This document shows, in pieces, positions 26,236 through 33,119 of a stretch of DNA of 64,000 nucleotides (the first letter of the stretch is position 1; every line of letters starts with the position of its first letter). Below the pieces are notes generated by a model. The model saw nothing but the letters and a program-made list of their open reading frames with translations, had not been told where the DNA came from and searched no databases. The position numbers and the translations under genes were made by a program. This stretch comes from Quercus robur (taxonomy: Eukaryota; Streptophyta; Magnoliopsida; Fagales; Fagaceae), in assembly GCF_932294415.1 (NCBI RefSeq), contig NC_065536.1:44476354-44540353 (forward strand), given 5' to 3'.

Positions 26236-26244
26236 AACAACTTA
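26236..26244. repeat. 9-bp TSD of MULE, left
   Basis: AACAACTTA, identical to 33111-33119. Nine bases is the Mutator-type duplication length. Confidence 0.95.
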
Positions 26245-26507
26245 GGGATAATTACACTTTACCCACCTGTGGTTTGCCTTTAATTTGACTTGTCTACCCG
26301 TGGTTTCAATTTTGACACTTTATCCACCTATAATTCCCTCCGTTACTAATCCGTAATCCACCTCTCCTTCAGTCTTTACTCTAACACATAATATGTCAAA
26401 AACAAAAGTCCAAACAAATCAAAACACTCCTCACTCCTAAAACTCACTCCCATCCAACTTGCTCACCAAACTAAGATCCTAGATGCTACAATGCAATGTG
26501 CTTGAGA
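26245..26507 (+). repeat. MULE left terminal inverted repeat
   Basis: Matches the reverse complement of 32846-33110 with few substitutions and small indels; homology fades after GTGCTTGAGA. Confidence 0.9.
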
Positions 26508-27412
26508 TAACTGGGTTTTGATCGTTCAAGCAAACCGAGCCGAGGAAGAAGGAGACACAATTGCTCCTCTGTTCAGTTGTTGCAAGTAGATCCTTTTAAT
26601 TTTTGAAACCTAGGGTTTTAAAATTATTTCTTCGAAATTGGGTTTTTGCTTAACCATGGAACTGGTAGTGCTTGTGATCTAGTTCTAGTGTAGTTAAACA
26701 ACTATAATTGTATTCTTCTTTTGTTGTATACTTGCCTTCGTTAAGGTCACAAGGATTTTTCTTTTCCCTCTCAGGATTAGTACTCTTTCTAATAGCGCTA
26801 CCTTTTGAGTAGAGAATGGTCATATCAATTTCATCAAATTGGGTTTTTGCTTGCTATGTATCAGTGTAAGGAAGTACAAGCTTTTTGTTCTGTTAAACCT
26901 GAGGATTACTATGTTTTACATACTGTGAATATGTTCTGTTTTATAGCGTTCATGCCAACATATATACTCTGATTTTCAAACCAAATGTGACGGAAATTTT
27001 TGTTCCAATTACATCCATTTTGAGTCACCAACAAAGGAATATGCTTGTCATAAAAATTTTAAAAAAAAAAAAAAAAGGGGGGGGGGGGCAATGTAGACAG
27101 GTTCAATTCTAACCTATGCTTTTTCATGAAATTGGGGTTTTGCTTGTATTCTTCAATGTGGAGTTGCTGGACCATAGGATTAGGCTTCCTTCATCAATGT
27201 GGGACTCCATTGATTATTGCTTTTCATGATTTTGCAATAGTATTGATTATTGCTTTTCCGCTTTCCCTTTCCATGAGTTTGTCTCCCAAAAACAAAACAA
27301 AAACTTTTAATAATATTGTCTATTTCTGTATTTTGCTTTGTGTGGACCACAGGACCACATGATACTTTTCCACATGTAAGCCCATCTCATACTTTATTTT
27401 GTTGTATTTTAT

Positions 27413-30051
27413 ATGCAAATGGCTGACTTGACATTCAATTTTGAGATTCATCATGGTGGCCAGTTTGTGTGGAACCCAGATTTAGTATATTTAGGAGGTA
27501 GTACTTCTTTTATTGATGAGGTTGACTTAGATAAACTTAGTTATTTTGAAATACAAGATATTTTTTCTGATTTGGGAGCATTTAGTACAAGTATATTTCA
27601 TTATCTTATTCTTGGAGGTAATTTAAAGCAAGGGTTAAGGCTTATAAATGGCGATGATGATGTAGTTTATATGTGTGAGATTCATGCTGTATGGCCTACA
27701 GATAAGATAACACTATATGTTGACGGTGGTGAGGAGCCATTTGCAATTGAACAACAATTTGGTAATGAGGAAGTAGCAAATGATGAAGATGTGTATGAGG
27801 CACCTCAAAATGGTGATGATATGCATGAGGTGGGTGAGAATGATGATGATGTGCATGAGGCACCTCAGAATGGTGATGATGTGCATGAGGTGGGTCAGAA
27901 TGATGATGATGTGCATGAGATGCATGAGGGAGGTAATGTGGATGCTAAAGGAGGTGGTGGACAAGATTTTGATTGGTTGGAGGAAGGGTTTGAGGGGCTA
28001 GATTTTGATGATGACGTATTTGGAAATGTAGATGATGGGCCATCTACACATAATGGAGTCAGTGTCAGTGCAGCAACCCCACATAAGCCCTCTAAGGGAG
28101 ATAATGTCAATGCAACCCTATATAGGCCCTCTGAGGATCTACCTATGTATGCAGCCCCACATAGGACTACTGTAGCTGACAATGACCCACCTCTTGAAGA
28201 GAGTGAATGGATTGATCCACCTTTTAAAGATGACATGGAAAGTCTAGTAGGGTCTGATGATGATCAACCAGCACCAACTGCTGCAAAAGAACCTGAGTTT
28301 AATGTCCAAACTGACATGAGAAAACCAGAGTTAAAGAAATGAATGAAGTTTCCAAACTCTAAGGTATTTAGGGAGGCATTGAGGGAATATGCTATAAACA
28401 AGCCAGTAGATATTAAGTTCAAGCTGAATGAGAAGAAAAAGATATCAGCTTATTGCATAAATGAATGTGGATGGAGGTGTTATGCATCTCAACTACCTAG
28501 GGAGTTGACATTCCAAATAAAAACATTCAATCCAGAGTGCACCTACCCTAGATCCTTTAAACACAACCAAGTAACTGCAAGTTATGTTGCAAAGAAGTTT
28601 ATGCAGGAGTTTGACAAAAATCCCAATTGGAAAGTGGCTAATGTTCAACATCATGTGAAGCAAGCACTTGAAGTTGACATAAGTTATAGTCAGGTGTATA
28701 AGGAAAAAAGGAAAGCTACTGACTTGATTACTAGGGTTGAACAGTTGCAATATAGGAAGCTTAAAGATTATGCAGAGATGATAAGATTGACTGATAAAGG
28801 AAGTGGGGTTATTTTGCAAACTAAAATGGAAGATGAAAATGCACAGCCCAAATTTAAGAGAATGTATATAAGGTATAATGCACAAAAAGTTGGTTTTTTG
28901 GGAGGTTGTAGACCAATCATTGGTTTAAATGGGTGCCACTTGAAAGGGAGATTTAGGGGCCAAATACTTTTTGCCACAGCTAGAGATGCAAATGATAACA
29001 TTTTCTCAGTTGCATTTGCTGTTGTTGTGTAAGAGAACAAAGATTCATGGTATGGTTTCTGCAACAATTTTCAGATGACATTGGGAATCCAAAGCAACTT
29101 AGTTTGGTCTTCATCACTGATAGACAAAAGGTATGATCTACAATTGTACTAGCATATTTAACCCACATATTTAAAGTTCAATAATACATGCCTCAGTTCA
29201 TTTCAACATGTTTAACTAACATATTTACTTGATCTGTTTTGTATATGAATTAGGGCCTTATACTTGCAATTGAGATGCTATTCCCAACTTGTGAGCATAG
29301 GTATTGTGTGAAGCATATCTATAATAATTTTAAAGTGGATCATAAGGGCTTGGAGTTGAAGGATGCACTACGGAGATGTGCTAGAGCCACAACAATCAGG
29401 GTGTTTAAGAGAAGAATGCAGGAACTAGAGGATTTAGATGTCAAGGCATGGGAGTATCTTGCTGACATCAACCCTGCACAATGGTCTAAGTCTCACTTTA
29501 GTAGTAGAGCTTTGTGTGATTGTTTAGCTAATAACTAGAGTGAGTCTTTTAATGCCATGATCTTAGAAGCTAGGGATAAACCAATTTTAGCAATGTTGGA
29601 GTAGATCAGAGTTAGGCTCATGACCAAACAATACAAAAAGATGAAAGGTATAGCAAAATACACTAAAAAGGTGTGTCCTAATATTCAAGATAAATTAGAG
29701 AAGTTAAAACATGAATCTATACCTTTCAGTGCTACTCCAGCAGGCAGCTTCATGTATAAAGTTGATAATGGTTGTGAGAGAAATGTGGTTGACTTGGTTA
29801 GGAAAGCATGTAGCTATAGGATTTGGGATTTGACAGGACTTTCTTGCAAACATGGGATCTCTACTATTGTTAAGAACCTGGAGAAAGTGGAGGACTATGT
29901 GCATCCTTGTTACTTGAAAGAGAAATTTGTTGACACTTACAAAGAGATAATATAGCCAATGTCTGGCCAATCTGAGTGGGTTGAGACTAACCAACCTGCT
30001 CCTTTTGCCCCTCTTGTGTATAAACCACCTGGCAGACCACTAAAGCAAAAA

Positions 30052-30082
<31 letters not shown>

Positions 30083-30828
30083 TATCTTGAAGAGCCAAGA
30101 AACCCTTATAGAGTTTTTAGGATGAACAAGACAATCAAGTGTGGGAAGTGCCAGAAAGAAGGACATAATGCAAGAGGGTACAAGGCAAGCATCATTGGTG
30201 AAACTCCATGGTAGAGAAGAGATAGACTTGCTAAACCAAAAGCTGTAAGTATTTCCATGCTTTGAACTATATTCATTTCCTCATATATTTCATGTGTATG
30301 TAACTTGTACACTCCTTTTTGTAGGCATAAGGCAGTAAATCTACAAAAACAAATTAGACTACAACACCTCAAATTGCATCTTAGCCACCAAGTACTATAT
30401 CTCAGCCTGCATACAAAGCTTTTGGTCAAACTGCATCTCAACCTACACCAAACAATAGATCTGAGGCAGCAACTCAACCTCCAACTACATCTAGGGCCAA
30501 CTGGTTCTCTTCATCCTCACAACTAAGCTTTCATACCCCTAGAGAGATGTGAGATTCTTTACCATCTCAGGCACCTCTGCTTTCTTCTATTTTGTTTATT
30601 TTTTTCCTCTTACTTGCTATTGTTAGACCATCTTGCTAACTACTGGATTTTGGTTATGCAGCCAAGTGCACTGTGAGCACTAGTGGTGCACCAAGTCAAG
30701 GAAGTGGTGGTGGTGCTGTTAGGGGGTTTAAAGGCAGAAAGTTTGGTGTATCAAGGCCAACAAAGCTTCAACCAGTTGGTGGAAAGGGCAAGAAGGCTGC
30801 TGGCAAGGGCACCAAAAGCAATAAATGA
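27413..30828 (+). pseudogene. MuDR-type transposase (broken)
   Basis: Transposases of this family cut and move the element through a DDE-type RNase H fold. From ATG 27413: a PB1-like N-terminal domain, an acidic repeat region, the MuDR DNA-binding region (from 28343), the transposase core (28850-29540), a SWIM zinc finger (near 29800-29850, ACSYRIWDLTGLSCKH) and a zinc knuckle (near 30140, CGKCQKEGHNARGYK, last Cys replaced). An intron lies at about 29131-29253. Breaks: TGA 28340-28342, TAA 29030-29032, a one-base loss near 29052, TAG 29536-29538, TAG 29602-29604 and TAG 29953-29955. An A/AT-run expansion at 30047-30085 adds to these. The first catalytic Asp (usual LDGCHLKG) is Asn here (LNGCHLKG). 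No active enzyme is expected. The gene end at 30828 is inferred from a basic Gly/Lys-rich tail after a further intron. Confidence 0.9.
27779..27928 (+). repeat. 30-bp coding minisatellite in transposase
   Basis: Five in-frame units of ten codons, consensus NDDDVHEAPQ alternating with NGDDVHEVGQ. They make a strongly acidic, His-containing segment between the N-terminal domain and the MuDR domain. Confidence 0.9.
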
Positions 30829-31693
30829 AGATGGAAGATGTTAAAGTTTCAACCACTTTTTTTGTTATAGTTCTCACGCTTAATGTAACTAGTATTTGCT
30901 TAAGCATGGTCAAGTGTCAAAAACAATATTGGCAATTTCGGTTGGAAGATGTGTATGTCTGATGTGTGGTGGACTAGTAGTTGGGTTTTGGTAGTAAATC
31001 TGTCTGCATGTGACATAAAGTCACAATAATTGTCTTCACTTTTACTAATGTTAATGTGCATTGACACAGGATAAAGTATTTTGTTGTGTTGTGCTTGTCT
31101 TTTCTTTTTGTGGATTTATAAAGGCTATGTGTTTTGCTTGTCTTGTGCTTTTGGTGGATTTACACAGATGTATGTATTTACACAGCAAATCATGTGTATG
31201 TGTAAAATATGTTCCATTTATAAACAGGTGTAGCATAGAACCAAAATGAATATATATTAATCTACTTTGTGGCAATATATATGGATCCATTTATGGGTAA
31301 GAAAACAACATGTTCCATTTATGGGCAAGTGTGCATTGACATAGCAAATCTTGTTCCATGCTCCATATATATTCCATTTATGGGCAGGGCAATTGTGCAT
31401 TGACATAGCAAACAACATGTTTCATGTTCCATATATTAATCTTGCATTGACACAGGTGTATGTATTGAACCAAAATGAATATATAATATCATGTTTCATT
31501 CATGTTATTAACATTTTCACATAATACTTTGTGCCAATATATATATCAATCCCAGAATGAAGTAAAATATATATATATATATACTATAGAACATTTGCAC
31601 AAAAACAACACTTTCCATTTCAGGAGATAGATACAATAATTAAGGACTTTGTATTTCAATTACCTAATCACATTTCAATATCCCCCCCAAGCA

Positions 31694-32289
31694 TCATGGA
31701 AGATTAAGGTTCCTCACCCTTACATTGTTGTTCGCTAGGGCAAAACACAACAACAACATTACAAAAATGAAAAATAACCATGACAAAACTAGTGTCACCT
31801 TGTAAAATCTCCCACTCTCTCTAACCCTCTTATGTTTCTCCCTAACTTCTACATAAAGCTCATGAGCTTCTCTTTCCCTCTGGTTAGATCTTTCTTCCAT
31901 TTCCCTAGTTGTCATTTCTCTCTGATTTCCAAGTTGCAGTTCATTCTCAAGCATACTTATCCTTTCACAAACAAGTGGGGCAGTTTCACTCTTACAACTT
32001 TCGTTATCCACCCACTGGAAGAAGCCACATTTGGGACCAACCTGATCATTACAATTATAACAATTAATTTCATTGTTCACAATTAATCACAACTAATAAT
32101 TCAATTCAATTCAAATACAATAATGGAATTATTTCTTACATTAAATTGACCACAACCGAGGAATCTTCTTCTATATTTACTAGCTTTTCGACTTGTTCGT
32201 GGGGCACAATTCTCATGGGTATATAAATGACCATCTCGGGCACGACAGAAACCACTAGTTGTAGAGCCATTGCTAGTTGATGAAGACAT
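31694..32289 (-). CDS. GRF-type zinc-finger, coiled-coil, membrane-anchored protein carried by the MULE
   Basis: Two exons (32289-32140 and 32041-31694) with a GTAAG donor and a CAG acceptor give 165 residues without a stop. Residues about 15-62 form a GRF-like zinc finger: cysteines at 15 and 28, RRRFLGCGQF near 41-49 and KCGFFQWVD after the splice. Then comes a charged, Glu/Arg-rich coiled coil (about 75-128), and near the C-terminus a hydrophobic helix (VTLVLSWLFFIFVMLLLCFA) followed by a short Asn/Arg tail. Plants have many small GRF-finger proteins of this shape, annotated as At4g04775-like, function unknown. GRF fingers in other proteins bind single-stranded nucleic acid. The gene lies wholly inside the MULE and converges on the transposase, so I infer it is an element gene. 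A helper role or a captured host gene are both possible. Confidence 0.8.
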
Positions 32290-32502
32290 AGCAAAAATTT
32301 GTTACAAGCTTATAGACCAACAAATCTGTTACAAGTGGCATAGTTCAAATTTTCAGCATGTGTTTAAAGGAAGGATAATCCTATGAAGAAAAGTATCATC
32401 TAAAACAAGTTCCCTCACAGTACAAGTACAAGATAAAGAGACCTAGGGTCATGCAGCCCCACATTGATGAAGGAAGGTCGAACAGCCCCACATTGATGAA
32501 TA

Positions 32503-32543
<41 letters not shown>

Positions 32544-32845
32544 CACTATAGATTTGCATTTAAATTGTCCTTGCAACAACCCAATTTCGAAAAAAAAATT
32601 TAAAACCCTAGGTTTCAAAAAATCAGATGAACAAAGCATATGAAAGTAAAAAACCAAAACTTGAAGCTCACCCAAGCAACAGATGAACCTAGAATCAAGA
32701 GAAAACAAACGGATCAAATACAAAAAATCAAAAATATAATTATTGCACGATGAACTCACCCAAGCAACAGATGAACCCAGAATCAAAGCTCCTTCTTCCT
32801 CAAGTTACTTGCATGATCAACGCCTAGATGGTTCTCGGTCTAGAG

Positions 32846-33110
32846 TCTCAAGCACATTGCATTGTAGCATCTAGGATCTTAGTTTGGTGAGCAAGTTGGA
32901 TGAGAGTGAGTCTTGGGAGTGAGGAGTGTTTTGATCTGTTTGGGCTTTTGCTTTTTTTACATATTATGTGTTAGAGTAACGATTGAAGGAAAGGTGGGTT
33001 ACGGATTAGTAACGGAGAGAATCACAGGTGGGTAAAGTGTCAAAATTGAAACCACAGGTAGGCAAGTCAAATTAGAGGCAAACCACAGATGGGTAAAGTA
33101 TAATTATCCC
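32846..33110 (-). repeat. MULE right terminal inverted repeat
   Basis: Ends TAATTATCCC, the reverse complement of the left terminus. It would lie upstream of the GRF gene and may carry its promoter. Confidence 0.9.
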
Positions 33111-33119
33111 AACAACTTA
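33111..33119. repeat. 9-bp TSD of MULE, right
   Basis: AACAACTTA, identical to 26236-26244. Confidence 0.95.

Follow-up and report, generated by a model that had tools for sequence, protein, structure and literature searches.

A decayed two-gene MULE and its genes

The stretch of Quercus robur DNA analysed here, hereafter the window (64,000 nt; assembly GCF_932294415.1, contig NC_065536.1, positions 44,476,354-44,540,353 of the forward strand), contains a two-gene MULE that has decayed and is probably a relic; its body occupies 26245-33110 with a TSD outside each end (Table 1). A sequence-only reading had proposed TIRs of about 264 bp and a perfect 9-bp TSD, and both were borne out: an outer (26245-26402/32953-33110) and an inner (26398-26507/32846-32955) pair of inverted arms, with 91% and 95% identity, respectively, make up TIRs of about 265 bp, and the same nine bases flank the element on both sides. 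TIRs of this length combined with a 9-bp TSD place it in the MULE superfamily. Each of the two converging genes sits behind one TIR, and the left TIR has 41 matches genome-wide (40 candidates scored).

Table 1. Features of the element, in window coordinates
Feature	Position	Strand	Details
TSD left	26236-26244	.	AACAACTTA, identical with 33111-33119
Left TIR	26245-26507	+	Precedes the transposase gene; inverted-repeat match to the right arm
MuDR-type transposase gene, broken	27419-30828	+	PF03108, reading frames and open-frame relatives L042, L043, L045
30-bp direct repeats	27765-27914	+	Within the acidic part of the transposase
Probable intron of the transposase gene	near 29132-29253	+	One intron
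GRF gene exon 2	32041-31694	-	Finger (second half), charged stretch, hydrophobic C-terminal stretch and stop codon
GRF gene intron	32139-32042	-	98 bp, GT-AG, predicted from sequence
GRF gene exon 1	32289-32140	-	Start codon, then the finger's first half
Right TIR	32846-33110	-	Precedes the GRF gene; inverted-repeat match to the left arm
TSD right	33111-33119	.	AACAACTTA, perfect 9-bp copy of the left TSD

The first gene is recognizable as a MuDR/MULE transposase through PF03108 (DBD_Tnp_Mut) in the window copy (28343-29029, E=2.3e-9) and through three domains, PF03108, PF10551 and SWIM, in the open frames of its relatives L042, L043 and L045. PF10551 reaches only E=0.031 in the broken window copy but passes its cut-off in three relatives whose frames are open. 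The gene carries at least six breaks, as had been claimed, because in-frame stops occur at 28340, 29030, 29536, 29602 and 29953, the frame changes somewhere from 29030 to 29130, and the gene is interrupted around 30050 by an A/TA repeat.

The second gene had been described as a convergent, spliced gene for a 165-residue protein with a GRF finger and a C-terminal membrane helix. Its structure agrees at the sequence level, with two exons joined across GT-AG borders into one open frame of 165 aa that converges with the transposase. The finger matches PF06839 (19.2 bits, E=0.0013) but falls under the curated Pfam cut-off of 25.9, and we therefore call the window copy GRF-like. Whole-protein scores of the B (22.6) and C (25.2) subfamilies and of the PIF/Harbinger-type protein (25.2) are likewise below this cut-off; in the genomic scan it is exceeded by 20 loci of the PIF/Harbinger type and by some of the single-exon loci in the window's clade. 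The first cysteine of the finger, presumably among its zinc-binding residues, is missing in subfamily A, to which the window copy belongs, and present in B and C. The finger is similar in sequence to that of NEIL3 (7omk, E=9.4e-5) and weakly to that of APE2 (5u6z, 0.053); those two proteins, however, are repair enzymes according to PMC9266487, whereas the protein encoded here is small and separate, with a hydrophobic tail. As for the helix, the most hydrophobic 19 residues of the window protein are 134-152 (Kyte-Doolittle 2.91); in each of the six proteins compared such a stretch lies 0-17 residues from the C-terminus, and hydropathy alone predicts a membrane-type tail.

That this gene is open next to a broken transposase had been offered as evidence in its own right. 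This does not go beyond chance: six breaks in about 2.8 kb predict 1.06 breaks in 495 bp, none being expected with a probability of 35%, so that the intact frame of the window copy carries no weight. Since the substitutions private to this copy (21 changes) also have a pN/pS of 0.74, we rejected its open frame as proof of selection.

The GRF gene across the window's MULE clade

All genome comparisons refer to this one Quercus robur genome; the searches scored the best candidates only, and all counts are among the matches listed. The GRF loci of the clade were pooled from 123 places, drawn from those listed out of 185 matches in all with most exon-1-only and duplicate rows omitted, and joined with 134 rows of a subfamily C protein search. 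Among the matches listed, a GRF gene lies within 10 kb of 126 of the 150 related transposase loci (95 before the subfamily C protein was also used as a query), and 126 of the clade's 176 GRF loci are paired with a transposase. Every one of the 126 pairs is convergent, with the transposase on the 3′ side of the GRF gene, when random placement yields a mean of 0.8 pairs and a maximum of 4 in 200. The MuDR-like layout that had been suggested, with a convergent second gene, is thus present in the window and in its relatives. For the other 24 of the 150 transposase loci, no listed GRF gene was found within 10 kb, and three of these have a correctly oriented one within 25 kb. We rejected the notion that the gene is truly missing wherever none was listed beside a transposase: one such locus, C3:1790340, was retrieved as L045 and contains it.

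A match to the window TIR was found within the 1.5-kb flanks of 23 of 30 GRF loci (window included), beginning within the first three TIR bases in 18 of the 23. The two-exon structure was tabulated for 22 of the 30 GRF loci L009-L038, leaving out L009 (the window itself), L010, L013, L029, L033, L034, L037 and L038; the intron site is that of the window, GT-AG borders are present in 20 of the 22 and the intron measures 97-103 bp in 21. L039 also has a perfect 9-bp TSD and L040 an imperfect one only; the duplications at L042 and L109 fall in A-runs and are little informative. Three short elements examined have the same TIRs and no match to either gene, so window-type TIRs can be mobile even where neither gene is present in cis.

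The GRF gene occurs in three subfamilies, spliced in A, single-exon in B and spliced at the site of A in C. A single capture from one host locus was rejected because the gene is present in related MULEs too, whereas the suggestion that it spreads with MULEs is supported by its presence, in these subfamilies, at most of the related loci. Between subfamilies, represented by one copy each, dN/dS of the GRF gene is 0.42 for A-C, 0.47 for A-B and 0.40 for B-C, with bootstrap 95% ranges of 0.24-0.70, 0.27-0.76 and 0.26-0.61, all below 0.8; the Ka/Ks check that had been proposed therefore speaks for constraint, although that on the transposase is much stronger (0.07-0.11). Within the young B subfamily no constraint is visible (dN 0.013 exceeding dS 0.009), as expected of copies drifting after insertion. 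This analysis took only GRF sequences of at least 470 nt (40, with 32 open); for the B frames an open state is partly by construction, since the longest open ones were chosen. GRF and transposase distances per element are correlated both among 18 A copies (Mantel r=0.85, p=0.0002) and among 16 B copies (r=0.78, p=0.001). The second gene is an inherited component of this MULE lineage and has been under selection between lineages.

Recurrence beside other transposases

A second MULE clade, with 35-43% identity to the window's over the aligned transposase pieces, has a GRF homologue with the same intron site. The final pairing counts cover all 134 second-clade and all 150 PIF/Harbinger-type transposase rows and 93 GRF places. 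Among the matches listed, a GRF gene lies within 7.5 kb of 85 of the 134 second-clade transposases, including all 40 closest ones, and pairing declines with divergence (40/40, 11/15, 22/32, 11/26 and 1/21 by falling identity bin); 78 of the 93 listed GRF places are paired, all 78 convergently. In a hand-picked set of better rows (52 GRF, 51 transposase), 49 of each were paired. The TIRs of this clade are 269 bp long, and those of L110 end at a 9-bp duplication, AAATAATAA.

The gene also recurs beside a transposase of another type. L107 encodes a DDE_Tnp_4-type transposase (PF13359, E=2.9e-15), and L108 and L112 were assigned to the same PIF/Harbinger type by DNA similarity; the three have the left end GGGCCCGTTTGG in common. 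A search for the right TIR gave a best score no better than shuffled sequence. A GRF gene lies beside 25 of the 150 PIF/Harbinger-type transposase matches, all 25 among the best 29, and the 25 pairs are all convergent, in the same layout as in the MULEs.

Conversely, 99 of the 134 GRF-domain matches listed for the genome adjoin one of these transposases, all 99 in the same orientation (the loci are partly shared with the 126 pairs), and this count is unchanged between a smaller choice of rows (best 40 of 150 and 87 of 134) and all rows. The other 35 of the 134, for example L113, have no listed transposase nearby. The idea that MULEs have swollen the number of GRF genes is upheld by the full set and less so by the matches above the Pfam cut-off, only 26 of 44 of which adjoin such a transposase, the other 18 having none listed. 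Eight of the 134 matches were retrieved with flanks. As a control, among the 150 best PF10551 matches outside both MULE clade lists, only 3 have a GRF locus at a distance of up to 8 kb, all in one triplicated segment. The findings also suggest that plant annotations may contain many GRF-like genes that belong to transposons, a point to examine before such genes are treated as part of the host's own set.

Possible roles and known systems

The best explanation for the GRF protein, to which we give about an even chance, is that of a membrane-anchored, DNA-binding accessory factor. Because more than 100 relatives carry the gene and it recurs beside another kind of transposon, it looks like a helper gene and not like one acquired from the plant in a single event. 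The protein would act in a step that unrelated DNA transposons share: the GRF ribbon may bind single-stranded or gapped DNA arising from excision or insertion, the charged stretch could serve multimerisation or partner binding, and the hydrophobic stretch might fix the protein to the ER or nuclear envelope such that its finger faces the cytosol or nucleus, whereby transposon or repair intermediates would be held at a membrane site favouring reinsertion. More broadly, GRF membrane-type proteins could make up a portable helper module for the DNA transposons of plants. The module would go back to the common ancestor of two deep MULE clades, and a PIF/Harbinger-type lineage would have taken it up independently or through exchange, with a convergent layout in every case; the majority of GRF-like genes in this genome would then belong to transposons, and action at the membrane would concern a step shared by both transposase types. 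For this wider proposal, too, we see the balance as level.

The main rival, possible but rather less probable, is a silencing antagonist comparable to VANC of the Arabidopsis element Hiun, which would keep the element expressed by trapping either single-stranded RNA or DNA or a silencing factor at a membrane. An anti-silencing function is stated for vanC in PMC6446971, the presence of the gene next to transposases of two unrelated types hints at a host step confronting different elements, and the fast evolution of the GRF gene relative to the transposase would fit an arms race, yet some constraint persists (dN/dS 0.40-0.47) and DNA binding is the activity documented for GRF fingers in PMC9266487. 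Improbable, in our view, is a passenger: an ancestral MULE would have taken in a GRF gene of the host, which then multiplied with no advantage for the element. Host genes do get taken up by MULEs (PMC6446971), no constraint is visible among the young B copies, and there are GRF genes without a listed transposase; against this stand the constraint between subfamilies, retention in 126 of 150 loci, retention with an identical intron site in the second MULE clade, and the occurrence of the gene next to the PIF/Harbinger-type transposase. The same GRF matches without a listed transposase (35 of 134) could be taken to mean that GRF genes and transposons are mere neighbours, but for the window's clade this is refuted by the single orientation of 126 of 126 and 99 of 99 pairs, by random placement yielding about one pair or fewer, and by the position of the window gene between TIR and transposase, inside the TSD.

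By layout, the element resembles maize MuDR (mudrA and mudrB), whose TIRs are likewise long and whose two genes are oppositely oriented; the difference lies in the second product, here with a GRF-like finger and a hydrophobic tail. PMC6446971 reports mudrB as required for integration and describes it as of unknown function. According to its Table 1, the second gene of MUDR groups is likewise often antisense, but the named partner there is PMD, and the word GRF is absent from the main text of that article; the VANDAL element Hiun (vanB, vanC) is similar by description in being a plant MULE with accessory genes (PMC6446971). Among the matches listed in the open-access literature (titles and abstract openings), no report on GRF genes in MULEs or PIF/Harbinger elements was found. 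The role of the second genes of plant MULEs is an open question, which the authors of PMC9168764 ask outright of ORFR in the Abermu MULEs of grasses. In the present case that role is directly testable, because the second gene encodes a recognizable nucleic-acid-binding domain together with a membrane-type tail, is open in many copies and is found again next to an unrelated transposase. ORFR, too, is antisense, adjoins the transposase and is of unknown function, and neither GRF nor membrane occurs in the main text of PMC9168764; set beside the GRF gene by description, it has a Ka/Ks of 0.39-0.56, with Ka and Ks both above those of the transposase (PMC9168764).

The GRF gene in the window's MULE clade

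The GRF gene, encoding a small GRF-like zinc-finger protein with a hydrophobic C-terminal tail, is a core gene of the window's MULE clade, convergent with the transposase and inherited with it. The two-gene MULE proposed in the sequence-only reading is borne out by its target duplication, terminal repeats, transposase and convergent second gene (see the table), with one terminal inverted repeat (TIR) ahead of each gene. The same reading stressed that the second gene is open despite the broken transposase; the frame is indeed open, but openness is expected in about one-third of cases. Private changes of this copy give pN/pS values of 0.74 (GRF) and 0.55 (transposase stretch).

Features of the MULE in the window
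Feature	Position or length	Strand	Remarks
MULE	26245-33110		perfect TSD AACAACTTA at either end
Inverted terminal repeats	~265 bp		91-95% identity
MuDR-type transposase		plus	PF03108 match; at least 6 breaks
GRF gene		minus	two exons, 165 codons

The window's GRF protein has 185 matches in the genome: besides close copies with two exons, there is a group of single-exon copies at ~45% and a third group, which is spliced. A 229-aa open transposase stretch finds 150 loci among the matches listed. Within these first listed matches, 95 of the 123 GRF places and 95 of the 150 transposase loci form pairs no more than 10 kb apart (random placement: mean 0.49, maximum 6), all 95 convergent with the transposase on the GRF 3′ side. 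Once a search with the GRF protein of subfamily C was added (the clade comprises subfamilies A, B and C, the window copy belonging to A), 126 of the 150 transposase loci and 126 of the 176 GRF places were paired among the matches listed, all 126 convergently, leaving 24 and 50, respectively, without a partner. Moreover, a TIR of the window's family adjoins the gene at 23 of 30 loci, window included, within the 1.5 kb of flank examined. Single capture of a host gene is ruled out by this convergent pairing together with the TIRs, and the proposal that the gene travels with MULEs is upheld.

A second gene opposite to the transposase is likewise described for MuDR, for Abermu (ORFR; PMC9168764) and for MUDR groups with an antisense PMD gene (PMC6446971). 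GRF is absent from the main text of both cited papers, and the open-access papers listed included none on GRF genes in MULEs or PIF/Harbinger elements.

Related copies vary in form. At G000:C6:239900-247700, the inverted repeat reaches 547 bp at 95%, exceeding that of the window copy. Short elements of 1.0-1.8 kb (L002/L007, L004/L008 and L006; e.g. G000:C2:58108872-58109896) carry the window's TIRs with neither gene matched, one having a perfect 9-bp TSD, TAAATTTTA.

Recurrence beside other transposases

In a second MULE clade, exemplified by L109 (G000:C6:8.19 Mb) and L110 (C35:2.26 Mb), the transposase is 35-43% identical to that of the window's clade over aligned pieces, the TIRs measure 269 bp (97-98.5%), and a homologous, convergent two-exon GRF gene has the same splice site. 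L110 bears the 9-bp duplication AAATAATAA at its TIR ends; target duplications of this clade are A/T-rich. Among the 134 transposase matches listed for it, a GRF gene lies within 7.5 kb in 40/40 cases at identities of at least 90%, in 11/15, 22/32 and 11/26 in the next bins down, and in 1/21 below 60%. Of 93 listed GRF places, 78 are paired, all convergently.

The gene also recurs beside an unrelated transposase type. At L107 (G000:C1:10.29 Mb) and L108 (C37:55.49 Mb), a hydrophobic-tailed GRF gene is convergent with a PIF/Harbinger-type transposase (PF13359), and L112 (C40:41.71 Mb) holds a decayed relative. The left end of this element is GGGCCCGTTTGG; a right end was sought at these three loci and not found. 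GRF genes lie near 25 of the 150 listed PIF/Harbinger-type transposase matches, all within the best 29. Between L107 and L112, dN and dS are 0.144 and 0.476 for GRF, and 0.161 and 0.334 for a transposase piece.

Selection, introns and possible role

Purifying selection acts on the GRF gene between lineages. With one copy per subfamily, NG86 dN/dS is 0.42, 0.47 and 0.40 for GRF (bootstrap ranges below 0.8), and 0.11 (A-C) and 0.07 (A-B) for the transposase, whose dS is near saturation (1.8-2.8) and for which B-C is not estimable; medians among A copies are 0.44 and 0.30, respectively. In very young B copies, however, GRF dN (0.013) exceeds dS (0.009). Constraint is thus visible over the life of the lineage, without sign in recently inserted copies. 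GRF and transposase distances are correlated within A and within B, indicating that the two genes travel together. An open transposase frame carrying the DBD_Tnp_Mut, MULE and SWIM domains exists in each of the three subfamilies (L043 in A, L042 in B, L045 in C).

Subfamily B (L042 and others) lacks the GRF intron, and because A and C share its site with the second MULE clade, precise loss in B is suggested. Between B and C, silent divergence seems lower in GRF (17/47 four-fold sites) than in the transposase (29/54); this may be noise, or the lineages may have exchanged the GRF module.

A profile from six window-clade GRF proteins matches the GRF finger of NEIL3 at E=9.4e-5 and that of APE2 weakly, at 0.053. 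We call the window copy GRF-like because the subfamily A finger lacks the first cysteine and this copy scores under Pfam's cut-off. In all six proteins inspected (five transposon-borne and that of L113, G000:C40:8154700-8162900), the most hydrophobic 19 residues lie 0-17 residues from the C-terminus, which by hydropathy suggests a tail-anchored build. The protein would bind nucleic acid, be anchored in a membrane and act as a transposon helper, a role to which we give roughly an even chance. Since MULE and PIF/Harbinger-type transposases are unrelated by family, its target would more likely be a host step common to both, either DNA intermediates and repair or silencing, than the transposase itself. 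Were silencing that step, the protein could be an antagonist of it, a possible but less likely reading.

Genome-wide census of GRF genes

A Pfam GRF scan (E up to 1) gave 134 matches, 44 exceeding the curated cut-off; eight of the 134 were read with flanks. Ninety-nine are paired with one of the three transposases (23 window clade, 51 second MULE clade, 25 PIF/Harbinger-type), all convergently, and 35 are unpaired. Of the 44 above the cut-off, 26 are paired and 18 are not. These 18 include two clusters of four matches each, on one strand, at C2:64.56-64.80 Mb and C37:0.87-0.99 Mb; in the former, at L114, the GRF finger lies in one frame with a CCHC knuckle. Also among the 18 is the GRF match of L113 (4068-4199), which has a hydrophobic tail and adjoins LRR and C-JID frames of disease-resistance type, with no listed transposase nearby. 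The genes of both clusters and that of L113 appear to belong to the host.

As a control, the 150 best PF10551 matches, none overlapping the two MULE lists, included three with a GRF place no more than 8 kb away, all from one triplicated 30-kb segment; GRF genes thus belong with particular clades, not with MULEs generally. Three MULE copies at G000:C40:5.86, 5.89 and 5.92 Mb are spaced by 30,110 bp, each ~8 kb from another PF10551 gene, as though a 30-kb segment had been triplicated in tandem.
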